The translations under genes were made by a program, and so were the position numbers. Positions 13,224 through 60,300 of a DNA stretch of 64,000 bases are shown in pieces. The stretch is from positions 14,667,001 through 14,731,000 of the forward strand of contig JAYKKT010000073.1 in the NCBI GenBank assembly GCA_036023115.1, written 5' to 3'. Positions within the stretch are counted from its first letter, which is position 1. Each line of letters opens with the position of its first letter. Below the pieces are notes generated by a model, which was not told the origin of the DNA, made no database searches, and worked only from the letters and a program-made list of their open reading frames with translations. Source of the stretch: Brasenia schreberi (taxonomy: Eukaryota > Streptophyta > Magnoliopsida > Nymphaeales > Cabombaceae).

Positions 13224-13571
13224 TGTTGGAAATCAAGTTAAATCTTGATTAGTTAGAGTTATTATTTAGTTATAGGTGCATACGTAGAGTCATAAGTAAG
13301 TTTGAGTCATGTAAAGTATAGTAGTTTGTAATAAGGGTCCTAATGGATCAGGATCCATTAGGAACCGTAATCCATTAGTTACTTATTAGAGTCATTTTAG
13401 TCTTTCAAGTTAAATCAGCATATAAGTAGTCATTAAGGTTTGTTATTAGTTTTTAAAATGTGAAAAAGGTGGCGGCGGCAGGTGCTGGCCGATCCACACC
13501 ATTGTAGTGCTCCATTGTGTAATGTGTTTTCTTGTTCAATTCAATGATTGATTTAAGCCCAAAATTCAACA
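13224..13571 (+). repeat. 5' LTR of copia element
   Basis: TG...CA ends, followed immediately by the primer binding site at 13572-13583. Confidence 0.93.
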
Positions 13572-18276: not shown

Positions 18277-18619
18277 TGTTGGAAATCAAGTTAAATCTTG
18301 ATTAATTAGAGCTATTATTTAGTTATAGGTGTATACGTAGAGTCATAAGTAAGTTTGAGTCATGTAAAGTATAGTAGTTTGTAATATGGGTCCTAATCTG
18401 ATCCTTTAGGAACCGTAATCCATGAGTTACTTATTAGGGTCATTTTAGTTTTTTAAGTTAAATCACCATATAAGTAGTCATTAGGGTTTGTTATTAGTTT
18501 TTAAAATATGAAAAAGGTGGCGGCGGCAGGTGCTGGCCGATCCACACCATTGTAGTGCTCCATTGTGTAATGTGTTTTCTTGTTCAATTCAATGATTGAT
18601 TCAAGCCCAAAATTCAACA
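18277..18619 (+). repeat. 3' LTR of copia element
   Basis: Preceded by the polypurine tract. It is followed by ATATATTG and then AGGGGATCAA. The last 10 bases are also found just left of the 5' LTR, so there is no clean 5-bp target duplication. Confidence 0.92.
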
Positions 18620-24023: not shown

Positions 24024-24788
24024 ACTTTTATCAGTTATTGTCGTCTTTAAATCTCTTTCATTGTAAGTGTTTTCGTTCGAGTTGTTTGTTATTCTCTAAT
24101 ATATACATGGATATCAGGCTAAAAGCATAAAATATAAAATATTTTTTATTCGGTTAAAGGAGATCAGGATATGGGCATCCCTCACTTAAGGAGAGATGCA
24201 CATGGGCCATGTCTCCCCTTAAATGGGAGACGTGGTTGAGGTATGTCTCTCAATAAAGATATGTGCTTTCGATGTGAAGTTTTTGTGACTAACGAGATTT
24301 TTTCCAAACTAGTGAATCATCTTCAAACATTGAAAAACGCTAAAGAATTCATGTAAAGCCATGAAAATACAAAGATGTTATTAAGAAATTGTTACCACTT
24401 TTCATCACTTTTATCAGTTATTGTCGTCTTTAAATCTCTTTCATTGTAAGTGTTTTCGTTCGAGTTGTTTGTTATTCTCTAATATATACATGGATATCAG
24501 GCTAAAAGCATAAAATATAAAATATTTTTTATTCGGTTAAAGGAGATCAGGATATGGGCATCCCTCACTTAAGGAGAGATGCACATGGGCCATGTCTCCC
24601 CTTAAATGGGAGACGTGGTTGAGGTATGTCTCTCAATAAAGATATGTGCTTTCGATGTGAAGTTTTTGTGACTAACGAGATTTTTTCCAAACTAGTGAAT
24701 CATCTTCAAACATTGAAAAACGCTAAAGAATTCATGTAAAGCCATGAAAATACAAAGATGTTATTAAGAAATTGTTACCACTTTTCAT
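24024..24788. repeat. Exact tandem duplication, 383-bp period
   Basis: 24024-24406 is repeated at 24407-24788. I found no difference on reading through both copies. The unit runs from ACTTTTATCAGTTATTG to ACCACTTTTCAT. Confidence 0.93.
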
Positions 24789-26010: not shown

Positions 26011-28938
26011 AACAACAACAACAACAAAGCCTTTTCCCATGCTAGACGGGGTTGACTACATGAATTCTTTGTTTCCACATAGCCCTATCATGTGCCATGT
26101 TAGCCGTTAACTCACAATAAGCTAGATCATTCTTTATTGCTTCTTTCCAACACTTTTATGACCGTCCTCTACCTCTTTTAATACTTTCAAAATCTAGTTT
26201 TTCATACTTTTTTACAAGTTCTTCTTTTGATCTTCTTTTTATATGTCCAAACTACCTTAAACGATATTCTCTCATTTTATCCTCTATTGGTGCTACACAT
26301 AATTTATTTTTAATAATCTCATTATGTATATGGTCTTTTCTTGTATGACCACTCATCCATCTCAACATCTTCATTTCTGTCACAGACATCTTTTGTACAC
26401 GTTGATGATTAACTGTCCAACACTCAGAACCATAAAACATGACAGGTCTAATTGTTGCTCTATAATATTTAACTTTTAACTTTAATGGTATCATCTGATC
26501 ACAAAGAATACCTTATGCTCCTCTCCTTTTTAACTAACCATCATTAATTCTATGTGTAACATCTTCATCAATTCTTCCATCACTCTAAAAAATTGACCCT
26601 AGGTATTTTAAACTTTCCTTTTGGGAGATGCAATATGTGTCAATTTTAATTTATATGTCCACTGAGGTAACCAAATGATCAAAGTTACATTCCATATATT
26701 TTGTCTTTGTTCTACTAAGTTGGAGGCCTTTGCTTTCTAATGTTTATCTCCATAGTTCCAATTTTCTATTAACTTTTTCCTTAGACTCCTCCACTAATAC
26801 AATGTCATCTATAAATAACATACACCAAGATACTTTATCTTAATATGTTTTGTTAACTCATCAATCACCATTATAAATAAGTATGGACTTAAAGTTGATC
26901 CATACTTGATGTAACCCAATATTAACTTCAAAGAAGTCCATCGTTCCTTCATAAGTCCTCACACATGTTTTTGCACCCTTATAAGGTTACCCTATCATAA
27001 GCTTTTTCTATATCAATAAATATCATGTGAAGGTCTTTCTTTTTTGCTCTAAAATGTTTCATAAGACGTCTCAAAAGGTGAATCGCTTCAACGGTAGATC
27101 TATCCAGCATGAATCCAAATTGGTTCTCTGTTGTACTCAATACTTGTTTTAACCTACATTCTATAATTATTTCCCATAATTTCATAGTATGACTCATTAA
27201 CTTGATACCTCGATAATTCGCACAATTCTAAATGTCTCTTTTGTTCTTATATGAGTATAAGTGTACTTGCTCTCTATTCCTTGGGCATCTTTTAATTTTT
27301 CTATATTTTATTAAATAGTCTTGTGAGGCAAGTGATTCTTGTTTCTCTTAGGATTTTCCAAACTTCTATAGGAATATTGTCTGGTCCTACCGATTTATCA
27401 CCCTTCATATGTTTAAGAGCCTATTTGACTTCATTCTTTTGAATACGTCGATAGAAATTATGATTTATATACTTTTTTATTTGGCTAACTCTTTTAATCT
27501 AATACTAACATCTTTATTTTCATTAAAAAGTTTATAAAAATGGTTTTTCCATCTATTTCTTATATCATTATTTGCCACTAAAAATTTTTCATCCTCATCA
27601 ATGCATTTAACATAATTAAGATATTTAGTTTTCTTATCTCTAACCCTAACTATCCTATATCTCTTTCTCCCTCTTTTAAGTTGAGTTTTTTTTTATATAA
27701 ATCCTCCCAAATTTTAGCTTTGTTTCAATAACGGCCTTTTTTGCTTTCTTATAAGCCTCTAAAGTTTTACTAGTTTTTTTAGCATAATGTAATTTGTAAC
27801 ATGCCCACTTTGCCTTGATTTTGTTTTGCACTACTTCACTCCACCACCAAGCTTCTTTTTGTGCCGGTACACCTCCCTTAGATTCACCTAACACATCTTT
27901 CGTCACTTTCCTAATATGTATAGACATATTGTTTCACATATCATAAGGCGTACCAGCATAATTTCAAGCATCTCCTTGAAGGACTTTCTATTTAAATATG
28001 TCTTCTTTTTCGCTTTTGAGGTTCCACCATTTAGTCTGAATAGCTTGATGCACTATTTTTTTCTTTGTCCATTTTTTATTTATAAATCCATAACTAAAAG
28101 TCAATGTTGGGTGGTTAAGTTTTTTCTTAGAATTATCTTGCAATCTTTACAACATGCTTTATCTTTTTTTCTACAAATAAAGTAACCAATTTGTATTTGT
28201 GATAAGCTACTCTTATAAGTAATTAAATGTTCATCTCATTTTTTGAAGATTGTATTGACTATAAAGAGATAAAATGCTATAGCAAAATTTAAAATCTCTC
28301 TATCTTCCTCATTTATATCCTCAAAACCAAAGTTTCCATGAATACCTTGATATCATAATGCCTCTTTACCGACATGTCCATTTAAGTCTCCTCCTCCTTA
28401 CTTGAGTACCATAATTTAAAACACGTATCCTCACTCTCATTTACTTTTTCTCCAACCCACTTTGACTCTTTTAGACATAGAATATCAATCTTTCTCCGAA
28501 TCATAGTATCTACCACCTCCATTAGCTCACCAAACAATGTTTCAATATTTTAAGAACCAATACGAATCTTATTACGTATGACTAACTTCTGTACCCCCAC
28601 ATCCGTCCATATTAAAAATGCGAAGACCCTTTCTGTAATTTATTTACTGCATTCAGGCGGCAATGTAGCGGGACTAACTTATTTACCCACACCCATTCAT
28701 AATGTGGGAACCCTCTGCAATTCATCCGAGCGAAAAACAATGCTTACTTTTCACTACATTCGAACTATGCAGCACATCGCTAGGCAGGAACGCCCCAAAT
28801 CAATACTAATAATTTGTGTAATCCATTATATAAAAATCCGACAAAGTTTTACGCTGACTGTTGGAATCCTAACACAACCCTCTTTTATCCGGGCTTGAGG
28901 CCGGCCATGCAAGGGTGATCCCTTACATGAGCGGAGTT
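26011..28938 (-). mobile_element. Near full-length RTE-clade LINE, decayed
   Basis: Flanked by 16-bp direct repeats AATCAATCATTTGTAT (25995-26010) and AATCAATCATGTGCAT (28939-28954), two mismatches. The 5' UTR lies at the right end (CATGTAAGGGATCACCCTT..). Coding pieces on the minus strand are the linker GVPAQKEAWWWSEVVQNKIKAKW (27870-27800), the RT block [38 protein letters not shown] (27130-26985), and FYGSECWTVNHQ...EMKMLRWMSGHTRKDHIHNEII (26440-26300). It ends in the tail AAAAGGCTTTGTTG(TTG)n. Numerous stops mean it is not active. It is about 2.9 kb and has some internal loss. Confidence 0.93.
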
Positions 28939-29566: not shown

Positions 29567-30397
29567 TTACACATAGGACTTCGGGTGGTTCGCTTTACCG
29601 GTGGCGCTTGTGCTTCTCCGCCGGTGGTGAGTTTGGTGCCTGTGGCTAATGCTGAATTTGAATTTGAGATGCCCTGTCCTCTTGAATCTCTGCTGCTCCT
29701 CGAGGTCTAGGATGCACTCCGGCATCGGTGTCGGGTACCGGTCACGGTCATAGCAATGTGAATAAGTCATGTATCTCAACCGGAACCTCCGCATTGCCGC
29801 CCGACCCTCTGGCGATATGGTGGCGAAGTCCTCGGCAGCAATATTATCTTCTTCCTCAGTACACCTCTCGGAGGAGACAAGCTGGATAGGGTCTGCTGCA
29901 CAGCCCTTGAGCACCAGGTCAGTGAATTCGGACACGAAGGGTGCATAGACATAGTTGGCCTTGTACCGGCCGCCAGAAGTGGCCCACGACGAGCCGTCCC
30001 AGATGGTGGCGTACAGCTGCATGGGCTTGGACGGGTAGTCCAATCCCATCTCCGGCATCTTCACCACCTCCCTTATGGGTATATCATCTATGTAGAATCT
30101 GCAAGAGACAGACCTCATCAGTGAATGCAACACATGAAATCAACACCAAGGACACAAGACACGTCTCTTTCATAAGAAATTTCTTTCCAAAATCAGTACA
30201 CAAGATGACACGAGGCGGATAATTTTTTTAGATGCGAGGCCGCGGAGATGGCGGGATTCCTTCTTATGGAAACCAGCTAAAATTAGTGTATCTTTGTCTT
30301 GAAGATCAAGTAAACTCAATCATGAAGACTAACGCGCAGAAGTCTTCCACAAACCATTCACTAAAAACAAACCTTCTTATAGAAAAGCACTCCAGTG

Positions 30398-30463
<66 letters not shown>

Positions 30464-31472
30464 TGGGGTGGTTAACCGCAAACCATCCTAGCAGTATCCG
30501 ACCAAAACACATAAATGAAATGCGTCTGCTTTCTGTAATTGGGTGGACCCATTCTGTATGGGAATAACCACACAAGCATAAACAAAGAAAGAGCCTTTTG
30601 GCTGCTTTCGATAAAGAAACGACCACTAACAAAAAGAGACGAAGCCCACTCTGGAATTGTCTGGCATGCATTCAACTCGATTTCTACGCTCTTCTTTTCG
30701 TCAGCCACGGAATTCCATTTTGACATTTTGTCACCGAATTCCATTTTGTCAGAATTCGCCGGCGACTTACGCCAAACTTGCAATTCGAGAACTCCCCAGA
30801 TAATCTCCGGCATGTCTTTTACCGGTGTCATTCAAGGAGATCTAAAGGAATCTCCGTTTTGGCACTTCTACAGACGAAGCTAGAAAACCCAACACGAAAA
30901 TGACCCGAAGAGAGTGAATTGGTAATGCTGGGTCGTGTTCGGGTTCAATTACCCATTCTTTAATTGATGATAAATGAGTAAGTTTGCAGACTTCATAAAC
31001 CATACCTTATCATACCTAACATGTAAGCATGATGGTCACAAAAGAAGAGGCCTTACATGATGTTCTTGGAGGTCCATAGGATGCTGTACCGATGAAACTC
31101 TTTGGACGGGTCGAACCACAATAGGTACCTCTCTTCCCTCCCATGGTTCGTGCTCCCATTGCCATACACATTGGTTTGAATCCGCCATTCCTTGCCCCGA
31201 ATGTTGCCCAAAAACTCGAAATCCAACTCATCGTGGGTCTTCTCGAAGACATCGCCGTTCGACGTCTGCACATAATAAGAAGCCCCACTTCATTGATAGT
31301 ATAACATCATATATAACCTGCCAATGGTGTTGCTCACTGTTTGACAAATTTTTTTTTAGAGGTGTGAGTGTAAATTTTTAAAGGTTATAAGATATTAAAA
31401 AATGATTAAAAATAATCATATTATATTCATACCATCGAAAAGCAACAGTAGAGTGAGTAATAGTGGGCAGGA

Positions 31473-31536
<64 letters not shown>

Positions 31537-32595
31537 AAAGATATTGTATCTCATTTATGATTGATCATTGTTTTACGAGTATATGAGTATAATAATATTA
31601 TTTTTAGTATATTTTTAGAAATCTCTTTAAAAAAATTTAAATTATACATTATGTAAACATGTCGAGATAGATACAATCATGTTTTTCTATATATACTTAC
31701 ATATATAAAAAGATTCATAAATGCTAATATATCGAAATAAATCTCGACTATCTAAATCGAAAGAATGATGGTTAATATTTTAATTTTAAAAACAAATTAT
31801 ATATATAACATAATGATTAATGAAAGGTAACAATTGATTTGCCTTCTTAAAAGGCAACTGTCTTTGAGTTAGAGTCGTCAACGGGTGATTTTACTTAATA
31901 TCTTCCATGTTGCAATCAATAGCCAACTGGCCCAGAAGAAAAGACTTGTAGAGGTTGAGGCTAACATTTTTTCAAACTCAAGCAACCATGTGATAGGTTT
32001 GCAAGAGTCTTACACGCTACTCAATTCAGAATCGAAAGATTACGCCAAGACCTTCAGGTTGAAAGAGGTCACGAGTTCCACGCCCACCGCGCGTGCATCT
32101 TGTAGGGCACTTTGACCCATTTATCGCACCAGCTTGCCAATTATTAGAATGGAGAATCAACCATAATTTCCTCCTTTTCTCATGTCGCCCTATCAAACTC
32201 GTCGACAATATTGACATTTGCAGAAAAAAATTAAAAAAGAAGGAAAAGTACACATAATTTCCTCTTTTTTCACGTTTTGCCATATGAAATCCATCGAGAA
32301 TATTGAAATTTGAAGAGAAAAGTGGAATTTAAAAAATTTAAGAAAAGAAGAAGAAGGTGCCATGAGCGCAATCTCAACTGGCGGGGTTCTTCGACTCTCA
32401 CGCTGTAGTGGTGAGTTCCATTTCTGACTGATGTTTAAATTATTAATTATTAAAGAAAGGACTCTCACAACAAAAGAAAGTGAAAAATCGTCACCATATT
32501 CGTCCATATTCGTGATCGGAAATGACCCGACGTCATGGAATCGGGAAAACCGTCACGACAAAACCGATTCTCCATCCATTCGGCTTAAATCGTCC

Positions 32596-32649
<54 letters not shown>

Positions 32650-33129
32650 GAAAAAAGTTAACTTTTGTTTCTGTTGTGGTGAAACTAAGCTGGCAAATTA
32701 TCGACTTACGTAGAAGGCGACGACGACGCCGGCGGTGTAGTTGGAGGGCAGCTTGATGGACGCGCTGAAGAGACCGTGGTGGTACAGATCCTTTGAGATG
32801 AAACCCGAGCCTGCAACAAGATCGTCGATCAGAGTTCTCCCTCTAACAAACCAAAATCGAAACGTCACCCATTCGACTTCGAAGGCGTAACGAGAATTTA
32901 AACGTTGAGAAATAATACCGGAGTATTTGTCGAGGAGAAGGCGGAGGGACTTGTCGTCGGGGGAACGGAGGATGTTGAAGTCGCCGAAGAGAGGAGCGTA
33001 GAAGTCGTTGAAGGACAGCGCCGTGACGTTGAAAGCCACGGAGAGGGTCGATGCTACTGAAAGGAGGACGACGATGGAGACGGCGATCGCCGCCGCTAGT
33101 CTCTCGTTCAAGGGGAACAGAGGCGCCAT
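29567..33129 (-). CDS. XTH: Xyloglucan endotransglucosylase/hydrolase, group III (XTH29/30-like)
   Basis: Exons (minus): 33129-32919, 32810-32710, 31265-31057, 30098-29567. They give 350 residues with phase kept and GT-AG at each intron. The enzyme cuts and rejoins xyloglucan chains in the cell wall. N-terminus MAPLFPLNERLAAAIAVSIVVLLS is a signal peptide. Exon 2 and 3 give LYHHGLFSASIKLPSNYTAGVVVAFYTSNGDVFEKT and the GH16 catalytic motif HDELDFEFLG, with both catalytic Glu residues, followed by an N-glycosylation site at NGST. Exon 4 holds the XTH C-terminal region with paired Cys (KGCAADP, SERC, YSHCYDRDRYP, PECILD) and a basic His/Arg-rich tail. RSPDDKSLRLLLDKYSGSGF and SKEFHRYSILWT are closest to Arabidopsis XTH30 as I remember it. 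Group III members are often hydrolytic, but activity is not deducible here. The gene looks intact. Confidence 0.96.
30400..30460. repeat. (TA)30 microsatellite in XTH intron 3
   Basis: 61 bp of pure TA within intron 30099-31056. Confidence 0.96.
31476..31533. repeat. (TA)29 microsatellite in XTH intron 2
   Basis: Pure TA within intron 31266-32709. The rest of that intron is AT-rich and holds no gene. Confidence 0.96.
32598..32644. repeat. (TA)23 microsatellite in XTH intron 2
   Basis: Pure TA about 65 bp from the exon 2 donor (32709). Confidence 0.96.
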
Positions 33130-33189
33130 GGCGTTGCTCGTTTCTCGTCCAGCGTGACGCTCTCCAGCGCCTTTGCTTCTCCGTTCCAC

Positions 33190-34540
33190 TGTTTATTTAT
33201 TTGGTTCGCCGCGTCGCTTCTTCGTTTTTCACTCTCCCACACTCATATCGAATGATGACCTGGACGGCCACCAGTTCTTATCTGTTTTAGACGTCGGGAA
33301 TTCACCCTTTTCGATGCACCACAAAAGCCCATAGTCAACTTCAAAAATTACTGACGAACCTTTTCGTGTTGATTGCATGCCAAGACCTGGACGCCATTAG
33401 TTCTATTGGATCCTAATATATTTGAGCCGACTTGATCGATCTCTGATTTGGATGCCGATTAAGCATGTCATGACACAACGATACTATGCCCAGTTCACGA
33501 TAAAATTATTAAAAAAATATTATATCGCACTAAAAGGTAAAATTAAAAATAAGCTTTAAATAATTTGAACATGTTAAAAGACGGATCATATAGTGGCAAA
33601 CCCATTTTAAGGCCTGAAATTTGAAAAATATAGAAAAACCAAACGCTACATCTAAATACAAATGTGTCTTACCTGAAATACAAGTGTGCCTCATCCTAAG
33701 AGAATTCTTGTATCGGTCATTGTATATGAAGCTTCGATATAAGAGGCACCTATTTTGAAAGAAGTAGGAAGAACCTGCTGAGAATTGGAATCCAACTCAA
33801 TCCAAACTTTCTTGAACCTCTAGGTTCGTTTTGGTCTTATAGTAGAATCTTCTTCTTTTATGGATCAAACTCACCGATTAAGATTTGTAATAAAGGCGGG
33901 TCGAGATAGTCATGTCAATGCGAAACTGGTGTAAAGGTATTTTAGGTATTTCGTCTCAGCTCAGGAAAGCGCGTCGGGCGGTCATTGCGTAGTCGTTAGA
34001 CGCCACGCTAGCAAACTAAAACCTTCTGTACCGAAACTTGCAGACGTGGCTCTTTGACACCCCATCTGTGTTGGCCACATGCCACGTCACCAACCCGCTG
34101 TTTTTGGTTTTAGCTCGGACTCGGACCGATGCCTGACTTGACGCTCTGGCTCCACTCTGTTAATATCCGAGATGGAGCTGTTTTGGTCGACGCCTAAAAC
34201 GGGAAATTGCCACCACCGTCACCTTCGGCCGGCCGATGATGGCTGCGTGACGGCAAGAGACGATCAAGGTAAAAGGAATACTCGGTTTATTTAAAAGGAT
34301 GATACCTTATGAACTCTTTCTTTCTTTAATATTTCAACAGAGATTTTTCTGTTGTTTCCGAGCGGGAGAAGATGAATGAATGAGTGGGCAATCAGGTGAG
34401 GGCGGTGATTAGAATAAAGGAGCCGCAAATCTCCCGGGGAACAATGTGTAACTTTCGATGCAAGTAAGAGGCAAAATGCCGCCGCCTCTTGAATACTGTT
34501 TTTTATTTGGTATCGTTTTTCTCTCCGTCTTTGGGTAAAA
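33190..34540. other. 5' flank of the XTH gene, no gene recognised
   Basis: An AAATAAATAAA stretch at about 33194-33204 (minus) is the only TATA-like element near the start, but it lies under 80 bp from the ATG and I do not call it a promoter. The remainder shows no coding signal that I can support. Confidence 0.4.
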
Positions 34541-36493: not shown

Positions 36494-36596
36494 AACAACA
36501 ACAACAACTAAGACTTTTCTCATACTAAACGGATCGGTTAGATAGATTCTTTGTTTCCACAGATCCCTATCGTGTCATGTAGCGTTTGAGAACAAC
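36494..36596 (-). mobile_element. Short 5'-truncated LINE tail
   Basis: A second, shorter copy of the LINE 3' tail lies next to the larger one: (AAC)n then TAAGACTTTTCTCATACTAAACGG and CACAGATCCCTATCGTG. GCGTTGGTTGAG before it and GCGTTTGAG after it may be a decayed duplication. Confidence 0.65.
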
Positions 36597-37476
36597 AACA
36601 ACAACAATTAAGCCTTTTCCCATACTAGACGGGGTCGGCTACATTGATTCTTTGTTTCCACAGATCCCTATCGTGTGCCATGTTAGCAGTTAACTCCCAA
36701 TAAGCTATATCATTCTTTATTGTTTATTTCCAACACTTTTGTGGTCGTCCTCTACCTCTTTTAATACTTTTAAAATTTAGTTTTTGTAACATTCTTACAG
36801 GTTCTTCTTTTGATCTTCTTTCTATATGTCCAAACCATCTTAAACGATGTTCTCTCATTTTATCCTCTATTGGTGTCACTCCTAATTTGTTTCTAATAAC
36901 CTCATTATGTATACGGTCTTTTCTTGTATGACCACTCATCCATCTCAACATCTTCATTTCTGTCACAAACATCTTTTATACATGTTGATGATTAAGTGCC
37001 CAACACTCAGAACCATAAAACATGGCAGGCCTAATTGCTGCTCTATAATATTTACCTTTTAATTTTAATGGTATCTTCTTATCACAAAGAATACCTGATG
37101 CTCCTCTCCATTTTAACCAACAAGCATTAATTCTATGTGTAACATCTCCATCAATTCTTTCATCACTCTGAAAAATTGATCCTAGGTATTTAAAACTTTC
37201 CTTTTGGGGAATGTAATGTGTGCCAATTTTAATTTCTATGTCCTCTGAAGTAGCCAAATGATCAAACTTACATTCCATATATTCTGTCTTTGTTCTACTA
37301 AGTCGGAGGCCTTTGCTTTCTAATGTTTCTCTCCATAGTTCCAATTTTCTATTAACTTTTTCCTTAGACTCCTCCACTAAAACAATGTCATCTGCAAATA
37401 ACATACACCAAGGTACTTCATCTTGAATATGTTTTGTTAACTCATCCATCATCATTATAAATAAGTATGGACTAAT
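36597..37476 (-). mobile_element. 5'-truncated RTE-clade LINE (C-terminal half of RT and tail)
   Basis: Good coding similarity on the minus strand in two frames. 37491-36976 reads YLFIMMMDELTKHIQDEVPWCMLFADDIVLVEES, which contains the RT catalytic box (here FADDIV), then RKLELWRETLESKGLRLSRTKTEYMEC, FKYLGSIFQSD and AAIRPAMFYGSECWALNHQ. 36972-36724 reads EMKMLRWMSGHTRKDRIHNEVIRNKLGVTPIEDKMREHRLRWFGHIERR. It is the best preserved RT of the family in this window but is broken off at the 5' side and frameshifted near 36975. Confidence 0.93.
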
Positions 37477-39181: not shown

Positions 39182-40770
39182 CTAAGGAATTGATAGGGAA
39201 GCAGGATCGAGCTCCCAACAGGCTTCCTTCGGCAGAGCTGCGTCTTCTCTTCTCGAAAGCTTCCTATCAGGAATCTGATGAGATATTCTCCGAATATCAT
39301 CTTTACCAATCCAATGAACGGCACAGGAACCCAACTCTCTTCTCTTGAAGATGGTCTTGAACCCTTTGACCTTCTCAAGATACGCCATGCTCAATCCCTG
39401 AATCTCCGTAAAGTTGGTGAGGCAAACAACAAGATCGTAGTTTCGCTTAGCTTCCGGCGACGCATTGTCGTCTCTATCAAGAGTTTGATCACCATAAAGC
39501 ACCCAAATCGAGCCCTTCGTCGGGTAGATGCGATAGATCTCCCTGACAACCCTCACAGATTCCACCAAATGAGAGAAAATGTTCACGGATTCGACGTCAG
39601 TTCTCCTGGCGGTCTTGAATTGCCCACACGCAACGTGAAAACCTGAACTCTCCCAACAAATGTGGGTCTTATCGCAATCGTTTTGTAGATCCAACCAACT
39701 CATCCGTAACATGAATGGCTCTGTCGACACGACTTCGTCGATCAATCCGTAATGCCTCGGCATTCCGTCGTCGTCATCATAAACCGCCCACACCTGACCC
39801 TTATTGAAGCTCCGCTCGCTCCTATCCCGATCGAAATCGTAGAAATCTGAATCGTCCACCCGCATTGCCACCAATTCGGAACTGGCCGGCCGATCACGCG
39901 ATGGCTTTTGTTTCCTATCATCGATTCCAGCTGGCTTCATATCGTCTAATCCGCTCTTCCGCTTACTTTCGCCACTAATCGAATAGCGAATCTTCTTCTT
40001 CCAAACAAACGCTGTACCTAAATCAAGGTCCTCTTCGGCGTTCTTCTTTGATAGGTCGATTTTGGGCGCCGCGGCAGAATCGTTCACAGATAACAAAGAG
40101 CGCTTCTTCTTTTCCTTCCTCTCTTCTTCCTCATTCTCTTCCTTCTTGTGCTTCTCCTCCACCTGAGACTCTCGGAGCCGAATTCGGTGGCCAAGAAAGC
40201 CTTTCTACACTTGGGACAAACAAGCTTCCGGCCGACGAACTTGCGCTCGAACTCATGAAGCCGATTGCAGGTGGTGCACTCGGTCAGGAAGGTGTCATCT
40301 CCCCGGGGGCGTGGCGGCAGCGAACGTCTGGAATTCAAGCTCGATCGGCACTTTAGGTCGTAAATCCGGCGGCGGGGGCGGTCGGAGAGGACAGACTAGG
40401 CTTGTCCAACGAGCTTGAATGCGTCCTCTGCGCCGGGATATTGGCGGCTCTTGTCCGGGTGGAGGACGAGGGCGAGCTTGCGGTACTGCGAGTTGATGCT
40501 GTCCACAGACGAGAAGGGCTCGGTCTAGAGCACAGAGTACCAATCGGGCTCTCCGGAGATGGTGGTGGAGGCAGCGATGTGGACGCGGAGGGAGGCCACC
40601 AACTGGGCTACGCCGGGGAGGTCGGGGCAGAGTTTCTGGGCTCGACGAGCATGCTTCAGCGCCGAGCTGAGCATGGAGGCATTGAAGTTTCGCTCGGCGA
40701 TACATTTCTCCCTCTCCGCTGCTGCTCTTCCCACAGCTGCGTCTTCTTCTTCGTCCTCGCGGGTGGAAGA
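39182..40770 (-). pseudogene. DnaJ-DUF3444 protein, broken
   Basis: Plant DnaJ proteins of this group have an N-terminal helical region, a J domain, a zinc ribbon and a C-terminal DUF3444. All are seen on the minus strand without introns: EKCIAERNFNASMLSSALKHARRAQKLCPDLPGVAQLVASLRVHIA, then DWYSVL, then YRKLALVLHPDKS with the HPD motif, then FLTECTTCNRLHEFERKFVGRKLVCPKCRKAF, then FNKGQVWAVYDDDDGMPRHYGLI (DUF3444) to a stop at 39182. Defects: TAG at 40525-40527, TAG at 40396-40398 (QA-stop-SVLSD, where the family has Trp), and a frameshift near 40165 between GSES and VEEKHKK. I found no ATG for the first part. It is probably dead; a short DUF3444-only product cannot be excluded. Confidence 0.88.
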
Positions 40771-42315: not shown

Positions 42316-45300
42316 ATGGGCAAAGGTCACGATTACGTTTATCTTCCCCTGCAGAACGCGATCTCCACTATCAATAAGCCCGTCGATCTTTTCGCCGTCG
42401 TTGTGGAGTTCATCCTTCCCAAGAAGACCAACGGGCCAGGTCTCTCTCTTTTTGTTTTTGCTTTTCACATAGGTTCTAACGTAGTCACGAGTGACGGAGG
42501 AGCCCATAGAACTAACGTAGGGTGCTTTCAAAACATACCATCGACTGACGTTGATGCACACGTTTGGGTGTCTATGTGGTTTTTTGTTTCCATTTTTATG
42601 CTCTTACTTTTCTAGGGTATTTCTCCTGTGACGCGTGAATTGTGGAGAGAAATCTTGGGAACAAAGAGGTTTTGACTTAGCAAAAAAAAGAAAGAGAACA
42701 TATGGAATGAAAGTGCGATATTTTGACTAAAACTAATAATATAAAGAGTCAAAATCGATTCACGTTTCATTTTCAAGAAAGATAAATTTGAATGATGTTC
42801 CGACAAGATTCGCTAAAGTGGGGCGGTTCACCAGATAGTCTCTGTGACAATATACCACTAGATCTTAATGTCCACCTCTCAGATGCTTTTTCTTTGTGTG
42901 ACCTGAATCCTGCATTTACAACCTTAGCGTAAATGACATGAAAAGAACTTAAGAAATGAAACCTGGGATCTTAACTCAAGGCAGTCCTGCACTTGATAGC
43001 ATAACCAAAAGATTCATCAAGGAAGAAGGAAAAGGTTCTTACAAAGAAATCAAAGAGACCCTTCCTTTTAGATGCTTTAAGTTCCCATAAAAATGCACTG
43101 ACTACAAGCATCCCCATAACATAAAAACGCAATCTATGACTATGACTTTTAGAACGAAATCATAATAGATATGAGCATGACAAAATCTGCCTAGAAGGCA
43201 AGAAAACATATTCTGGTAAGACTCGCGTTACATGTCAAGTTGCCCCTGTTTTTCCTCAACTTGGAAATTTTTATGCCCGACTTATTTTCTTATCTTTCAT
43301 ACTTTTTTTTGGTGAACTTATTCTTGAGTATGTTCATTCGTATCCTGATCATTGCAGATTATTTCTGCGAGCTGAAGATAATGGATGAATCCTATCAGCG
43401 GTGTGGTATATCTGTCAGGTTCTTTGCGCAGGAGATGGAAAAGCTTCCGCATGTCAACTCAGTTGGGGATATTATCCGTCTTCATAAAGTCCTTGTAATC
43501 ACTAAGTGAGCCATGATTGTTGTTCATTGAGGTGGAAGTCTTTTATTCTATTAGCTTCTATCCGGGAGCTAGAATCTTGGTTGCGAAAATTTAGTTAAAC
43601 TTCTCAGGTTCAAACTGCATGTCTTTCTAAGCTTGTTAGTTCCTAATTTCAATTACACGATGGTTCCTTTTTGTGGTTGATCTCTTTTTTCTTCTTTTAA
43701 ACTTTTAGCGAAGTTCTAGTTACCATTGCTTCAAATTTTGCAGTCATTAATATAACTGATGTTTGAAATATATAGATAAAAATGGTTACTTTGGGTTTGC
43801 CCCAAAAAAGCAAAATATCTCAATGTTTATAGCAGAAACATCACGCTATCAATCTATGAGACGGTCTAGTTGATAGTATAACTGATCCTATTCATGTGCT
43901 TGTTGGTTCTCAACTGGGAAAAGTTTGTCACTAGTCTCTTCTCTCTTTCGTGGTGCAAACGGGCATTAACAAACTAACTAATGGGTTGGCTACTTGGCGG
44001 TAATTTGATACCCTGCACGCATCTGGCGGGCATGTGCCTCATCCTAGTCTGCTTACTTAAAAAAATGGAATATTTGGCTGCTTGTATTTCCAACAGCTTT
44101 GGTGCTAGAAGCATTTGTCAGTTTAGCCAATTTACCTTTTAAAGCATTACATCATTTAATGGCTGCAGATGAAAGTCCACAATGAGGAGGTTGTTGTTTA
44201 TCACAGTAAGAGGTCCTCTTCTTTTCTCCTGTTTCATGGGAAGCTTGGCAAAGACTTTACCCCATATCAGGCATCTGCACCCTTCAAAATTAATGATCAT
44301 GACAAGGTTCACATTACAAAGATGAAAACCTGGTGGAGCAATTTCCATGTTGATTCAGGTACTTCCCGTTCAAGAAAAAGTAAATGAAATGAAAAATACT
44401 TTTATTTTTTCAAGAAACATAACTCCGCTCATATAAGGGATCACCCTTGCATGATAGGTCATAAACCCAGATAAAGGAAGAGGGTTGTGTTACGTAAAAC
44501 TGTGTCAGCATGGATTCTACAAATTATGAACATTGCATTGGGCGTGTTTCCTCTTAGCGATGCACTGCATAACACAAATAAAGTGAAAAGTAAGCAAGTG
44601 TCAATACATCTTTGCATGAATTTAGTGAATCAATTGTAGAGAGAATTCTCACGTAACGGAAAGGTGTGGGTAAAGAAGTTAGTCCCACTATATTGTCACC
44701 TAAATATAGTAAACAAGTTACAACGAGAGTCTCTGCATTTTCAGCATGGACGGATGTGGGAGTAAGGAAGGTAGTCCTAGATATAAGATTCGTATTGGTA
44801 CTTGGAATATCGGAATATTGACCGGTAAGTTAATAGGTGGTAGATACTATGATTCATAGAAAGATTCACATTCTATGTTTATAAGAGACAAAGTGGGTTG
44901 AGAAAAAGCAAAGGAGATTGATAATATATGTTTTAAATTATGATATTCAGGAAAGAAAATTGCATTAGAGATCAACTTTAAGTCCATATTTATTTATATT
45001 GGTCATTGATAAGTTAACAAAATATATTCAAGATGAAGTACCTTGGTGTATTTTATTTGCATATGACATTGTATTAGTGGATGAGTCTAAGGAAAAAGTT
45101 AATAGAAAATTGGAACTATGGGGAGAAACATTAGATAGTAAAGGCTTATGACTTAGTATAACAAAGACGAAATATATGGAATGTAAGTTTGATCATTTGG
45201 GTATTTCAAAGGATATAGAAGTTAAGATTCACACACATTACATCCCTCACAAGGAAAGTTTTAAATATTTAGGGTCAATTTTTAGAGTGATGGAAAAATT

Positions 45301-48300
45301 AATATAGATGTTACACGTATAATTAATGCCGGTTGGTCAAAATGGAGAGGGGCATCATGTATTCTATGTGATAAGAATATACCATTAAACTTAAAAGACA
45401 AATATTATATAGCATCAATTAGACCTATTATATTTTATGGTTTTGAGTGTTGTCGAGTTAATGATCAATATATACAAAAGATGTCTGTAGTAGAAATGAA
45501 GATGTTGAGATAGATGAGTGGTCACACAAGGAAGACCGTATACATAATGAGGTTATTAGAAATGAATTGAGGGTAGCATCCATAGAGGATAAAACGAGGG
45601 AGAATTGTTTAAGATGGTCCCGTAAGATAGGCTTAGTTGTTGTTGTTGATTTTTTGAAGAAACATAAAAAAGAATTGGTTTGCTCAACATTTGATGCTAT
45701 GCTATTTACAAGAATTTAGTCGCTTTTATGCTTGAGTTAAATAAAATAATTATATTTAAGGTATGCTTCGGTTGATTTAAATAAAGGAATTCTAAGGTGT
45801 TTATCTATAACTTCTGATATTGGTTGTGGCTATATTGCAAGGCATGTATATGAAGGCAGTTTGAAAAGTAAAATATCGTGACAAAAAGTAGGAAGTTCTA
45901 GAACATCTAAGAAAATGACTAGAATACAAAAAGAGGTGAAAAGTGCAAGGCAAGTAAAAGGAACCTGTCTAGCCACTGAAATCTGTGAACACGCCTTGAG
46001 TCTCTGATGCCACAGTTTCTGATCTGTTCAATCATTTGGTATGCCTATGAGCACCTTTTGTTAAAGTGTTGCTGCTATTGGCAATAAGATCCTGATGTCA
46101 ATTCATTCAAGTGGTAAAATTATGAATGATTCCATAGAAGGTAATGACTTTGTTATTGTTTTTGTCCTTTTGGATAGTTTTGAAAGGCCAGTAAGGTCAT
46201 CAATGCAAATGAGGTGAGCCATCTGCCTCTTCTCATTAAGATTCACATGATTTATTTTCTCATGAAATAGAAACGAAGGAAAGAAAAGAAGCAAACAGAA
46301 GATATGTTCTTGCTTCTCTCTCTCTCTCTCTAGACATGCCCCCTCTATGCATATGCATTTATGAGTATGAAACAAAATCTTTATTTCCCTACTAAGGTCT
46401 TTCGAGAAAGGACCATACTGCTTCCTACACCTTCTGATAAAATCATTGAACATGAAATGCCACCTTGATACTCTACTTGTATACATTTTATCATGGATAT
46501 TGAATAATAAGTGAAGGATGAGAGATACGAAAAACAAATATATGGATATGTTCTCTCGAAACGTCTTTTTAGGTGCAAATCTGTATGCTTTGGCATTACA
46601 ACTGAAGAAACTGAAGGAGTGCTGATATTTTGATTTGATGTGAAATTTTAGCATGTATATAAATACCTAAATTGTCGTTACAAACTTACAACCTATTAAC
46701 ACAACACACAATGGTGGTACTGTAAATATATACATTTTTAACATATATATGAAGAATAAGCGAAGGAGAAAAGAACAAGGAAGGAGAAGATATATTCTTG
46801 CTTTTCTCTCTCTACATTTCCCCCTTCCATGCATATGTATTTATGTGTATGAAACAAAATCATTTTCTCCTTCTTAATCTGTCAAACCCTTCTTTTCAGG
46901 TGCAAGTAAGTATTCTTTACCGTTACAACTGAAGGAACTCAATGATTGTCAACATTTTGATTTGATATGCAAGGTTTGCCTTTTTTTTTGTCTATTATTT
47001 TCAACTAGGTGACTGATTTTTCTAGCAATGCATTTCAACAGGCGTGGATATGAACTTTACCAGATATGATTAAACTTGATGGGTTGCGTTTTTCTTGGTC
47101 ATACAGGTTCTTCATATATGTGAAGTTTCTGAAACAGAATCAATTCTCTTTGTGTGGGATGGAACTGATGCTCCTCTGCCATGCTTGGAGTCGCAGTATG
47201 AGGCACAACCTCTTTATGGCTGTTTTCTTTTGCATGTGATTGAAATACACAATCAAATAACAGCCTTATATCTTACTTTTGCTAAGATTGTTTTTGATAT
47301 CTGTGAAGTTTTGTTGATAGATTAAGGATACTGATCTTGTCAGCATCTGTAAAGTACCTTTTCTATGAAGCATTTTCTCTGTCATCCACTTTTTGCTTTT
47401 CACTTTCTTCTTATTGATCAGTCGTTCTCATTGAATTGACTCACAAAATTTCTTCTCACCATCGTCTTACTGACCAACCTTGTTCGCTTTTATTTTGGGT
47501 CATATCTAGTACTCAGATTTTGCTCTGATTTGTTGTTGCTATCACGGCTTGCAATGAAACATTGTTTTACCCCTAGATCCCCTGTCGATGGCTACACTTC
47601 AACTTATTTTTGTGAGAATCAGCTAGCCCTGCGTTAGAATGACATTTGACCCCTAATCTAACCACAAGTGATCCAATGATTCTTCAACATCTCTTGATTC
47701 AGACCTTCATTTAGTTTCACCCCAAGCTTCATCCTGGCTGTGAATAGATCACCCTGGTTTGGGTCTGAAAAGTGATAATTGCCTAAGGAAGCCCTGCTTT
47801 TGCTTTTGCTTTGGTGTTTTCTCTTAATCAAGCCACTGCTGATGAGTCATAGGTTCATTCTTGAACAGGCACATGATTAGAGTTCAAATCCTCCTCCAAC
47901 TCCTTGGGGTTCACGCTTTCATGTTCTATTTCACTTGTCCATATTTTTTTGCAGCTATTCATGAATGAACATACACAAAGTCACTTTCTCTGTTTGCATT
48001 TCTGTGTAATTGAACACCTCAATGTTTTGTTCAGTTGCAATTTCTTAATGTTAATTCCAAGGGAAGATGCATTTTCCTAATGTATGTTTTCAATGAATCA
48101 CAGGCCAGATCTTCAAGCAGGTTCACTCCCTTTACAATTGGAGCAAGTGCCCTTGTCTCGGGATGTCCTCAGTACCTTTCCTTGTGTGGGGACTATCTTG
48201 AGGGTATTTGTTGGTGAACTCATGGATACGTTGGTTCAGCTAAAGGTTGTTGGGCGTTGGGTATTGTTCCATAATATGATTTGTAAAAGGAGGTTTGGAT

Positions 48301-54300: not shown

Positions 54301-57300
54301 TTTATTTTTTCCTATTTAACACTTTAGAGGCCTTCGTCTCGTTTGAAAGTGTTCAATCCAGTTTCTCAAGTTTCTGCATAGAGTTCCATGTATCCTCGTC
54401 TCCAAATGTTTAACCACGTGTCTTTCTCATTTTACCCTCTAGTATTGTGGCGCCAACTTTTCTCTTATGACCTCATTTTGGTTCCAGTCTTTCATTGTGG
54501 TCACATATCCACCTCAACATTTTTCTTTCTTCGACTGAGGCACCCTTCAACCTCCACTCTGTTGCGCAGCGAATAATACAAAATATCAACAGAAGATAAA
54601 GAGAAAAAATGGAGATTGGAGGAGGGGCCCCTCTTTCTCTCTTTCTTAATCTCAACAACTTTTTTCTAATTACAACTTATCAGCCCTTATATAAGGAGCT
54701 GTAAAACGTAAAATGACCAAAATACCCCTAGTACAGAAAATTATCAAAATGCCCTTAAGACTTCGGACAATTACAATAATACTCTAAACATCAATTTTAC
54801 TATCCTAAGACATTATATGTACTAAAACTGACTCTAAACTCATATTCTTCAACACCCCCCTCAAGTTGGGAGTGAGATACTTCGAACTCCAAACTTGCCA
54901 AAAATCTTCATCTGTTTGCAACATTTTTCATCCGTCTTCATCACTGATTTAATCTTCAACAACTTCTTTGGCTGTAATATCTTCAACTCAGCCTTCCTGG
55001 CAGATCATATTAAGTAGCATCTCTGGCTGCAATATAAACTTTGTCTTCCTGGCTAATCATCTCAAGTAGCATCTCTGGCTGCAACATCAATTCAGCTATC
55101 CTGGCTGATCATCTCAAGCAACATCTCTGGCAGCAATATAAACTTAGCCTTCCTGGCTAATCATCTCTGACTGCAACATCAACTCAGCCATCCTGGCTGA
55201 TCATCTTAAGCAGCATCTATGGCTGTAACATCAACTCAGCCTTCCTGATTGATCATGTCATGACTTTCTTCATCACACGTGCACTAGTAATTTCTTCGAG
55301 GCTTCTGTAAAACAACTTGAACAATTAAGAACACATGGGTAACACCCGAACCTTCTATGGGTGTTGATTGCTCCTCCTCTCTTTCTTCTTCTCTATAAAG
55401 TGATTTGACAACTACACGTAAAAATCATATTTCTTCTGCTCTTGAGAAAGTTGATCTTTTGTGATAGGAGGTACTACTCCACCATACACACTTCACGGCT
55501 TTTTCTACGCCCCTTCACATGGTGGTTGCAGCCGGTGTGTTGGTTGGGTGCTCTCTCTCTACCACTCAAATAGCAGAATACATACATTTGCTTGTACTAG
55601 TCGGTCTCCGCCCCTTCACATGGTGACTGAAACCGCTTTTACAACCCTCCTGGCTGTTTACTTTAGCAACTCAAGTTCTTAACCTTCATTATTCTTGGTA
55701 ATACGACCACATTCTATATCAACAAATTCTTCTGGCCTCTTCAATGATTTAATTTTTCATGAATATGTAGTGAAAAAGACTGATTTTCTGTATTTTTTTT
55801 CCAGCCCCTTGGCTGTCCATTTTCAAGCAGCCTTCCTTGCTGCAACACTTTTTCAGCAACTTTCACGGTTGCAATATCTTCAGCAGCTTCATGGCTGTGA
55901 TAATTTTCACCAGCTTCTTGGCTATAACAACTCTTCAATTCAGCCTTTATGGCTGTCTTTTCCAGCAGCTTTTATAGCTGTAAATTTCTGCAACTTCAAT
56001 GACTACAAATAATCATTGTTAACATGCTTTTCAGACATATTTGTCACCCACTTGCGTGGTCCTCCATATTCACTCAATATGTTATATGCATATGAGGCAC
56101 CACTTAAACCAACGGTTTCTATCGCACACAAACTTGTCATGCCCGACTTGATTTGTCTCTGTGTTCTCTCAAGCACAACTAGACTTGAAAATGTTGAAAA
56201 ACATCTTTAGTGATTCTGCTTCCGACATTTCTAAGCTTGGACATTACTTTCCTGGCTTCTGATGAAATTTCATCAACTAACACCAGGCATTCAAACACTC
56301 TTGCATAATCTTTGACAGGCCAATGATCATGCCATAGGAAAGGATTTTTACCAACAATCTGTATGATCTCATTCTCATCAATTGGGTTATCCTTATGCTG
56401 TTTCAATTGAGCTAAATCTCTGTCTGCAGTCCATTTTCTTCCTTCTCCTTTTTTGAGAATAAATGGTGTACTTTGATTTGAAAGACTTGAGAACCGTCCC
56501 AATTGCACAAATCCATCACAAAGGGAATTAAATTTATCGAAAGAGAATACCTTATCAAAGTCAATTGGCTCCAAACGATCAATTTCTTTATAGAACAATG
56601 AAGCACTTAAGCTTGGCATAAGCAGCGTCCGATTCAAAAAACTTGGCAGTCAAACACGCTCTAGCAAAGGCAATCTTTTGATTGTTCAAGCCCCAAACTA
56701 TATGTGGAACTACCAAGAATTTGTTTTTCCTAACTCCTAGACCAGAATCAACTGAAGGAACAGTGACCAAGTTGAGGTAACCTTGTCCAATCCCCTGAAA
56801 CCCATGGATTGAGCCCATCATAACTACTCTGAAAGCAAGTGCGGCTGCAATAATTTTCACATGTTCATTTCTTCTGCATGATTAACATAACCAAGAGAGT
56901 TCCTGAGATCGTCTTCGTTACTTCGTTAGATAGCAGTTACCATTCTTCTTTTCTAAAAAAAATGGGGATAAGACTTGATGGTTTACTTTCTCATCCAATC
57001 AAAAAATGGAAGTTTCCATAACTATCTCACAAAATCAGGCAAGTACTTTCCATATCCTACCTTTCGGGTTTGCCTTCCATAAAATCAGGAAAAGTAATTG
57101 TAACTTCCTGCATTTGAAATTCAAAAAGAAATAGAATTATCTTTTCTAAAAGAAACTGTTCTTACTTTCCAGAATTTTGCGTAACCGCTTTCAGAAATGA
57201 TGACTCATTTACTTTAGATAACCAATAGCCTTCCTTCTTCGTTATCTTCTTCTTCCTTTTTCATCTTCTCTCTTTCCTGATGGACTCTTTTCAAAAAACA

Positions 57301-60300
57301 AATAATAAACTTTGAGATGAAATCACATCATTCTGTAATTTAATATCTGCACGAGCAAGATGAGATGTAAAATATCCTTCAGTAGATCGCCAATGTCGGG
57401 GTCACAATTTATAACAGCCCCAACATCATTGATGAGTTTTACAATTCTCTTGGCTTGCATATATATGGCAAAAGCCTTTCCTCCTATTATGCAAACCCTT
57501 GGAGTAAACTCTGATTCTCTTTGTTCGGGACTCATCTCCTTCATCTTTTTGTAATGATACATTGTGCCCAGGATGTTCAACAATTGTCGCTTATACTCAT
57601 GTATGCGCTTCACCTGAATATCGAACATCGCCTTTGGGCTGATAAGATAGCCTGTCTTCTCTTTTATAAATGAAACTAGTTTCAGTTTATTCCTTCTTTT
57701 TTGGCTGCAACCCACTTAGCTTTGAGTTCTTCGTTATCAGAAAACATAACAATTTGAAGGTAATTCTTTGTTGTATATGAACCATCACGCTGAAGAACAG
57801 AGGTTGCTGCTGCCAGTGCTTCTTATCAGACGTTCTCTTGAATGATGATAGTTGGCTGCTTCTGTGTTGCCCTCCTTTGAATCAGACACAAACAAAATGT
57901 GACAATCACAATATAAATCAATCACAACCCTGTTGTCGACGCCAATCTGTTTTCTTTATATGCCACGATTCCAAGTCAGGCAATCACTACCAGTCACAAA
58001 TGCCTCAAATCTGATCTTCTTCCACAAAAACTTTGAATCCTTCTTCACGCATAAAAAAAACTTATCTACTGATTTTCTTCTTCCAACATCATCGAGATAA
58101 ATGCCATATAGGCTCTGATACTATGTAGGAAACGTGGTTGCGCAGTGAATAATACAAAATATCAACATAAGATAAAGAGGAAAAATGGAGATCGGAGGAG
58201 GGGGTGGACCTCCAATGGAGGCCCCCCCCCCTCTTTCTCTCTCTTTCTTAATCTCAACAACTTTTTCCTAATTACAACTTATCAGCCCTTATATAAAGAG
58301 CTGTAAAACGTAAAAATGACCAAAATACCCTTAGTACAGAAAATTACCAAAATGCCCTTACGACTTTGGACAATTACAATAATACTCTAAACATCAATTT
58401 TACTATCCTAAGACATTATATGTACTAAAATTGACTCTAAACTCATATTCTTCAACACACTCAACACCATAGAACATTACTAGTGTTATAGTTGCCTTTA
58501 TAATATTTACCTTCCAATTTCAGTGGCATCTTCTTGTGACCAATATATCCCTTGCACATCTTTATGAAGTAAAGGACAAAAAATTATGTTATTACACACA
58601 CCTCTCTATGAACTAAACACGAGGACAAAAAACTACGCTATTAAATTTAAAAGCATATAACAACCACAACTACAGCTAAGCCTTTTCCCATACTAGATGG
58701 GGATTTAAAAGCATATAAATAAGCAAAAGATGTTTAGGTGAAAACAGTTCAAGATTTCATGATCTTGTCAACCGACGAGATTTGGCTTGGAGTTAGCCTG
58801 ATTAAACTGGTGGACTTCATGAGCGGTGAATTCTGCCATGGGCTGTGGAGATCCAGTCAACAGTCTCTTGCGGCTTCACATGAATAAGCTGGACTGTCCA
58901 TCTCTCTTTTAGACACTAAAATTTTACATTCAAATGGATTTTAATGCTTCTCTGTTTTTTTTCCCTCTCCGCAAGTTACTTGCGGGAACTCCACAAGAGA
59001 GCGAGATCCATCCTGCTGTGGCTACTGATTCCACAGGCAAAACAGTGAAGGAGAACGAGGGCGCAGGGCTTTGTGGTTTTCCCACCGGTAACTGTGGCCA
59101 GATGGGATCCTCATTCTTGTGGGCTTATGTGTGTGATAGCAAAAGCTATGCTGAGATAACCTTATTTCTCTGAAGTTATAATGTGTTCTATGTTACAGGT
59201 AACTCATAAATATAAGTGCGTTGTTCGGGTCATAGAATCATATCCTTCACGGGCTGAGGATTTCCAGTCCCCAATTAAGCGTCTTGTGTACAGGATCCGG
59301 TTTACCCTAGAAGACTCAACAGCTAGGCTTCATGCTTACTTGTATGGGGAGGATGCAGTAAGACTTTACTTCCTGTAGTTAGCTTCCAAAAGGTTCAGTT
59401 ATGCTTATTGTCAGGTTACAAAGTTCTCCGTGTCATTGTTTGTTGATTTTTATCATCCTTTATGTAACATCAATATCAATATTTGGCTCACAAGGTTGAA
59501 TCATCTGTCTGGGATTTTCTAAGACATGGTGCTAATAGGTATTGGACCACCATTGACAAGTAAATTTTGATGCTAACCAAAACAATGCTCCAGAAACTGA
59601 AATTTGGCAAGAATGTGTCTGGAATCAACAGAGATTTCCTGCATTAGAGAAAATGTTTACCTGCAGGATCTTTCTACTGGAACGATTTCTTAAGCAACGT
59701 CACATTTATAAGAAATATGAATGACCTGGAGAGCGTCTGTGAATGGCTGCATTACTTAATCTCATAATGTTTCTTTGCTACTTCGCATGTTCAATGAAGT
59801 TGGACTTTGTTGTGATGCTTGGTTGTACTGGGGCCCTCAATCTTGCTCGACTGCATGTTGAAATTTGCTTTTTACATAAGCCCTCAACTTGTCTCTTAGC
59901 TTGGTAGGTCATACAACTTTTCACTACCATATATTTGAAATTTCTACATCTTAACCTTGGTTGGCTTCAAGTATAATGGTCTAAGTGGGGTCATTTAATG
60001 CCCTTAACCTGCTGTCTATCAGCCACTCTCCTCTGATATGATCTTTTGCTTTTCGCTGTTGCAAATTGTTCTCATTATTTCCATGGTCACAATGCAGGTG
60101 AAGTTTTTCTATGGTTATCCAGACACAGATATGTTGACTTCGAAAATGAACAAATTGCTAGGGATCACAAACGGTAGCAGCAATGTATGTGGTGATGTGT
60201 CTAATATGAGAAATCCACCATGGGTTCTGGTTGGTATCAAGTCTTATTACTTGGACAAGAATGATCCATGGGGAAGCAGGCATTATCGCATATGCGACAC

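Follow-up and report, generated by a model that had tools for sequence, protein, structure and literature searches.

How does a long terminal repeat (LTR) element without a recognisable gag or pol come to carry exons of several unrelated host genes? The question is raised by an element on the minus strand (54560-58457) of a 64,000-nucleotide stretch of Brasenia schreberi DNA (the window), which is part of contig C73 of a 1.055 Gb host genome. Between its LTRs we find pieces of a plastidial starch phosphorylase gene (PHS1), an O-fucosyltransferase gene (O-FucT) and a third gene that is TTM-like. Based on the comparison with its sister copies and with the host genes, this element very probably belongs to a family of non-autonomous LTR elements that gathered host gene pieces successively, with both splicing and template-switch steps. 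In what follows, "el" denotes element coordinates, C62, C85, C49, C57, C88 and similar names denote host contigs, and L009-L036 are compared loci. The features of the element are:

54555..54559, no strand: left target site duplication (TSD), CACTC
54560..54854, minus: 3′ LTR, 295 bp, TGTTG...CAACA
54855..54867, minus: polypurine tract (PPT) AACTTGAGGGGGG, read from the sequence
54868..56014, minus: non-coding 3′ interior, common in whole or in part to all six sister copies compared (L009-L013, L034)
56015..56201, minus: O-FucT sub-piece C, Nymphaea colorata residues 366-427
56202..56842, minus: O-FucT sub-piece N, N. colorata residues 31-243, with a frameshift
56843..57376, minus: spacer, whose first ~100 nt (57376-57274) are a TTM-like tail
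57376..57377, minus: point of a 378-nt loss (GTATGC...GGCAG) relative to L010-L012, from the captured PHS1 donor to a putative cryptic TTM-like acceptor
57377..57613, minus: PHS1 exon k+1 (VKRIHEYK...GDLLK), complete
57614..57744, minus: PHS1 exon k (FSDNEEL...FDIQ), complete, with a 2-nt frameshift
57745..57824, minus: TTM-like piece, fusing segments of two exons that lie ~3.6 kb from each other in the C57 host gene
57825..58110, minus: 5′ leader, in part matching many other genomic sites
58111..58123, minus: primer binding site (PBS) TAGTATCAGAGCC, abutting the 5′ LTR
58124..58457, minus: 5′ LTR, 334 bp
58458..58462, no strand: right TSD, CACTC

The PHS1 piece was acquired from RNA

The PHS1 piece (57744-57377, sense to the element) consists of 368 bp, corresponding to two whole exons and 122 residues of the enzyme. 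Its best structure match is PDB 5lr8 (E 9e-50), and the exons of host PHS1 genes are 87-95% identical to it. The three closest host genes (C62, C85 and C49) match the piece as two blocks, el 713-846 (700-846 at C49) and el 843-1082, separated between FDIQ and VKR by a GT-AG intron, intron k, of 89, 89 and 92 bp, respectively. This intron is missing from all five PHS1-bearing copies (the window, L009, L010, L011 and L012), which share the same junction of exons k and k+1. Because the closest host genes hold the intron and none of the five copies does, the comparison indicates that the piece was acquired from RNA from which intron k had already been spliced.

The nearest host gene is that of C62, from which exon k differs by 0.8% (L011, L012) and exon k+1 by 3.0 and 3.4%. 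Four remoter host matches (77-78%) span exon k+1 alone.

Open reading frames (ORFs) of other plants (best 120 of 633 matches) bear on the intron indirectly. Homology is lost 1-3 residues before VKR in 25 of 54 ORFs with at least four upstream residues, and one residue past DLLK in 27 of 92, while 11 of 92 extend to residue +25. One ORF (P0126) runs through an intron exactly at FDVQ-VKR. Contiguous ORFs (for instance P0121, P0122, P0125 and P0127) opposed the presence of an intron, and these may be partly spliced RNA. The host PHS1 genes settle the matter and supersede this indirect evidence.

A captured intron stub and its removal

Past exon k+1, L010, L011 and L012 continue with GTATGCATATCG..., which is the start of host intron k+1, over 42 nt (C62) or 44 nt (C85); the stub of L011 has one mismatch. 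Beyond the stub lies sequence corresponding to the TTM-like piece of L013. Since the stub is kept in these three copies, the captured RNA would have been devoid of intron k and still in possession of intron k+1.

The window and L009 are devoid of the stretch running from the GT of the stub (GTATGC) to ...AAATGGCAG, which measures 378 nt in L010 and L011 and 381 nt in L012, and have GAAG joined directly to GATATTTT. The donor of the missing stretch is the host PHS1 donor, and the AG acceptor lies within a block matching a TTM-like host exon. In the line leading to the window and L009, the captured donor was probably spliced to this cryptic acceptor and the product retrotransposed. Splicing and reverse transcription account for the loss in one step.

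The two joins of the PHS1 piece

At the 5′ join (marked by a slash), the five PHS1 copies read ...ACCTTCAAATTGTTATG/TTTTCTGA, with ...TTATG before the join. L013, which has no PHS1, reads ...ACCTTCAAATTTTTCTG/GTAAGAATAGC, with ...TTTCTG before the join, and the TTM-like exon of the host reads ...AAATTGTTCTGGAAAG at the same place. In the host genes, PHS1 exon k starts with TTTTCTGA after CAG (GCAG in C62 and C85). This makes a blunt join, which falls at the exact start of exon k and at a GT in L013 and fits splicing from a donor in the element to the host acceptor. If so, PHS1-less copies would read ...TTCTG/GTAAGAAT at this place. A switch of reverse transcriptase through the shared word TTCTG is disfavoured because one copy of the word would be expected and two related ones are present.

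The 3′ join lies inside intron k+1, where ~44 nt of element sequence were dropped and no splice site is found. A template switch is the likelier origin of this join.

A third host gene flanks PHS1

An initial annotation of this locus had counted two host genes. This proves to be an undercount, with TTM-like remnants lying on both sides of the PHS1 piece, of which the window keeps 57824-57745 and ~57376-57274. Against PDB, the stretch L013:4461-4763 gives 7z66, inorganic pyrophosphatase TTM1, at E 1e-4, and the piece has no match in Pfam. In L013, nine blocks correspond to eight in the C57 host locus, without the host sequence that lies between them there; host introns of ~0.6, 1.9 and 3.6 kb are missing. 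The blocks are permuted, those further 3′ in the host coming first in L013, and partly duplicated. Upstream TTM-like exons were not found in a further 5 kb on C57. Two template switches, or a circular RNA, might account for the permuted order. The last part of the spacer that follows the TTM-like tail in the window is common to L011 and L012, both without O-FucT.

These observations bear on whether the pieces were instead captured as DNA, with ectopic recombination or gap repair drawing on genomic PHS1 and intron k disappearing afterwards. The ~42 nt of intron k+1 in L010-L012 would suit such a route, given that the source was not fully spliced. Nevertheless, we consider it improbable, since intron k is missing from all five PHS1 copies compared and the three closest host genes have it, the TTM-like introns are missing as well, and the bases preceding exon k match the TTM host exon and not intron k-1.

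The O-fucosyltransferase pieces

The O-FucT piece (56842-56015, also in sense) spans ~830 bp in two sub-pieces. The match of highest identity is N. colorata O-fucosyltransferase 23 (E 6.5e-104, 74%); one Artemisia entry has a slightly lower E-value but 60% identity. Sub-piece N is 98.9% identical over 641 bp to a host locus at C88:26.22 Mb. Sub-piece C matches that locus at 84% over 45 nt alone and holds a VGLSGAS-like stretch, as in Nymphaea and Victoria, that the locus does not have; on both grounds it probably derives from another paralogue.

We found no intron in the O-FucT stretch of three host relatives (L031, L032 and L033) or of public contigs. Seven of 120 listed matches (536 proteins passing) are full-length O-FucT23-like ORFs on contigs of 4.9 to 122 kb, which are too long to be transcripts, and we take them to be plain ORF calls. 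All three host relatives (L031 and L032 on C88, L033 on C87) look broken or chimeric, and no intact host parent is present among the matches listed. The idea that the gap inside O-FucT is a removed cryptic intron was rejected, the junction not being GT-AG relative to L031.

The initial annotation had described both gene pieces as seemingly intronless over 400-680 bp and had judged this to fit RNA capture. Their lengths are now 368 bp for PHS1 and ~830 bp in two sub-pieces for O-FucT. The argument stands for PHS1, where the suggested comparison of parental introns found an intron of 89-92 bp within the segment in the three closest host genes. For O-FucT we rejected it, as the relatives have no intron there.

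In place of O-FucT, L010-L012 carry ~1.33 kb of other sequence (L011:5868-7203). Parts of this L011 segment match C51 and C66, in blocks set apart from each other (q586-809, q559-588), and its final ~365 bp are found again, whole or in part, at ~26 listed places (best 40 of 576 candidates).

Structure and classification of the element

The right-hand LTR of the element is the 5′ LTR. Because the LTRs of sister copies run past CGCAAC through a further CACGTTT...ACA up to the TSD, with a full end resembling ...CACGTTT(C/T)C(A)ACA, the 5′ LTR end in the window was set at 58124. The 3′ LTR is ~12 nt short near its end compared to sister LTRs. The 5′ LTR has a 26-bp GC-rich stretch at ~58204-58229 that its 3′ counterpart does not have. 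The LTR pair shows 14 substitutions in 295 aligned sites (4.7%), 12 of them transitions. Degenerate 52-bp tandem repeats are found at ~54985-55260, within the 3′ interior.

Among 46 interior ORFs of at least 38 residues, 15 were run against Pfam and no gag or pol was recognised. Only Phosphorylase passed the cut-off; below it came O-FucT (E 0.022) and three chance-level names (E 0.05-0.17). The tRNA match of the PBS covers 12 of 13 positions, against TGGTATCAGAGCC. The non-autonomous element is perhaps of Copia type, as judged from the PBS alone. Rfam and tRNA scans and a promoter scan of the 5′ LTR gave no useful result. Viral contigs, searched with one LTR pattern, gave zero matches, as did plasmids.

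Paired TG..CA LTRs, a 5-bp TSD, a PBS, a PPT and independent insertions elsewhere place the element among LTR retrotransposons, and the gag-pol of an autonomous Copia element is missing from the 15 ORFs searched. With 3,898 bp between the TSDs it exceeds the size of terminal-repeat retrotransposons in miniature (TRIMs; < ~1.5 kb). Large retrotransposon derivatives (LARDs) have LTRs of several kb, a PBS, a PPT and a non-coding interior; the element resembles them in these features except for the length of its LTRs, which at 295 and 334 bp are ~0.3 kb long. Introns are not kept in the captured pieces as they are in Pack-MULEs. As in Bs1-type elements, pieces of at least two unrelated host genes (PHS1, O-FucT, TTM-like) lie between the LTRs as exons without introns (PHS1 intron k, the TTM-like introns), apart from the ~42 nt of intron k+1 in L010-L012.

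Elsewhere in the window, a second LTR-like pair (13224-18619, 94.5%) encloses an ORF matching Pol_BBD, with gag_pre-integrs just under the cut-off. Three related retroelement fragments lie at 26011-26889, 36594-37473 and 44970-45613, one overlapping an RVT_1 reverse transcriptase domain, and 24024-24788 is a perfect 382-bp tandem duplication. Host genes encode a PPR protein (4074-5519), a xyloglucan endotransglycosylase (GH16, 29567-33192) and a DUF3444 protein (39182-40204).

Sister copies differ in gene content

We compared seven copies: the window, L009, L010, L011, L012, L013 and L034. PHS1 is found in five, O-FucT in three and both in two. L009 carries both genes, as does the window; L010, L011 and L012 carry PHS1 and no O-FucT; L034 carries O-FucT and is devoid of el 371-1337. 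L013 (G000:C81:7195500-7205400; 4100-7700) has neither, and contains TTM-like, mannanase-like (E 4e-19) and BSD-domain pieces. Five of the six sister copies have TSDs of their own (four perfect, one with one mismatch), the 5′ end of L013 being unresolved. Many further places in the genome match part of the leader or interior. L036 holds part of the family interior with no clear LTR pair.

Taken together, most of the initial annotation is borne out. It had proposed an LTR element, bounded by CACTC on both sides and with PBS and PPT but no gag or pol, that captured pieces of a starch phosphorylase and an O-fucosyltransferase in its own orientation, and had suggested a repeated family. The same PHS1 join is now seen in four sister copies inserted elsewhere and is therefore not due to chance.

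Variable content between copies might also be expected if the pieces were nested insertions, retrogenes or a DNA transposon having landed in an ordinary element. We hold this to be very improbable: the four sisters with the same PHS1 join have their own TSDs, and the pieces lie in sense and replace element sequence (~44 nt at PHS1, ~1.3 kb at O-FucT). Moreover, no inner TSD was noticed on reading the joins, although no dedicated search for one was made.

The LTRs of the six two-LTR copies differ by 2.5 to 6.6%. For O-FucT sub-piece N, the divergence from C88 is 0.9% in the window copy and 1.7% in both L009 and L034. A capture long before insertion, drawn from an excess of element-specific residues (34/293, with 5.4% expected from the LTRs), was dropped, the excess probably being in part host divergence.

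Among the matches listed, the highest identities at comparable coverage are to Nymphaea and Victoria (O-FucT 74/72%, PHS1 84/83/82%); ranked by E-value, three entries, one of them from Artemisia, come ahead of these. In a tree combining both O-FucT sub-pieces, the element piece falls beside Nymphaea and Victoria (100/99), with those two grouped apart from it (98/96). The PHS1 tree gives the same placement with lower support (94/88 and 83/74). The host thus probably belongs to a lineage of the Nymphaeales that branches outside Nymphaea plus Victoria.

A stepwise history and its alternatives

What we read directly are the copies with their TSDs, the joins and the introns of the host genes; from these we infer splicing events, template switches and an order for both. 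An ancestor would have carried spliced but rearranged TTM-like exons. Its transcript would then have gained PHS1 exons k and k+1, with intron k gone, and ~42 nt of intron k+1, through a donor in the TTM-like piece of the element joined to the authentic PHS1 acceptor and, within intron k+1, a reverse-transcriptase template switch back to element RNA. In the line of the window and L009, the captured PHS1 donor would next have been spliced to the cryptic TTM-like acceptor, removing 378 nt, and the RNA reverse transcribed and inserted. Finally, two O-FucT pieces would have replaced ~1.3 kb of other sequence. Movement would have depended on the gag and pol of another element. Given their frameshifts, stops or deletions, the captured pieces are probably not functional as proteins.

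Several points weigh against this history. The splice reading of the 5′ join depends on L013, the one PHS1-less copy holding this TTM-like stretch and the sole comparison for the join. At C49, the alignment extends 13 nt into the end of intron k-1 (el 700-846, 87%), and this likeness could have guided a template switch at the 5′ join; the 13 bases are better explained by the TTM host exon than by intron k-1. No element match was found upstream of exon k within ~5 kb (C62, C49) or ~12.5 kb (C85), so a cis insertion giving a chimeric transcript is not seen at these genes. The ends of the 378-nt loss share a 3-nt microhomology (AGG), and a microhomology deletion is possible. The junction within O-FucT is not GT-AG relative to the nearest host locus, and the TTM-like label is tentative at the PDB E-value given above and with no Pfam match. 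Furthermore, the 4.7% LTR divergence exceeds the 0.9% between O-FucT and its host locus, so that at equal rates dating and capture order disagree. Faster LTR change, LTRs stemming from different copies or conversion of C88 could explain this mismatch.

How general, then, is the part played by splicing? The family may gain and rearrange host exons by this means, donors in older pieces trapping host acceptors and captured donors later being spliced to cryptic acceptors. We put this forward tentatively, somewhat short of an even chance; it is weakened by the likeness of the element around the 5′ join to the last bases of intron k-1 at C49.

Alternatively, partly spliced host RNA was captured by arbitrary template switching, as modelled for Bs1, with the exact exon start and the donor being coincidence. 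The PHS1 3′ end within intron k+1 and not at a splice site, the internal O-FucT join and the permuted TTM-like exons, as expected of repeated template switches, all agree with this, as does the 13-nt likeness at C49. It sits poorly with a 5′ join placed at both the first base of exon k and a GT in L013, and with a 378-nt loss that begins at the host donor and finishes at an AG. By a rough hand estimate that takes 14 introns and a coding sequence of ~2.9 kb (PMC9104829), a breakpoint placed at random would lie at most 3 nt from an exon border in ~3% of cases. We regard this alternative as less likely than not.

Comparison with known gene-capturing elements

The initial annotation regarded double capture as uncommon. 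This is fair, but there are precedents: Bs1 of maize (PMC13317346, PMC4717578) and the soybean TRIM GmaRetroS15 (PMC4717578) each carry pieces of three genes. Like Bs1, the present element holds, between its LTRs, exon-only pieces from three host genes unrelated to each other; unlike Bs1, it involves another host lineage and other genes, and has copies with and without the pieces, some with part of a host intron. The gene-carrying TRIMs of soybean and Medicago hold exons alone, and in two of these TRIMs more than two genes are represented (PMC4717578). Our element resembles GmaRetroS15 and related TRIMs in being non-autonomous, in carrying pieces from as many as three genes without introns, in its 5-bp TSDs and in having mostly several copies after capture. 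It differs in size, theirs being 1,172-1,449 bp (PMC4717578) and this one 3.9 kb. The available part of that account mentions neither an intron remnant nor a captured splice site being used; here a remnant is present in some copies, and a captured site was probably used. In Pack-MULEs and other Pack-TYPE DNA transposons, introns are taken along with the exons and the ends are terminal inverted repeats (PMC4717578, PMC13317346). The element shares with Pack-MULEs the carriage of host gene pieces and differs in its LTRs, PBS and PPT and its want of terminal inverted repeats.

With the terms used, the open literature searched yielded neither a description of this element nor a case of an LTR element capturing PHS1 or O-FucT. 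Likewise, a captured intron stub, its removal through a captured donor and a before-and-after series within one genome were not found for Bs1 or TRIMs in the available parts of PMC13317346 and PMC4717578.

Gene capture by LTR elements is already known and usually deduced from end products; what stands out here is an unusually legible series of stepwise acquisition. One genome holds a PHS1-less copy, stub-bearing copies, stub-removed copies and the host PHS1 genes, which makes the order and the chemistry of capture (splicing or template switching) directly testable. A segment without one intron need not derive from fully spliced mRNA, which blurs the rule that the absence of introns means mature mRNA. 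If the family does gain and rearrange exons by splicing, captured genes would be a source of splice sites driving the next rearrangement, and the family would constitute an RNA-level line of exon shuffling.

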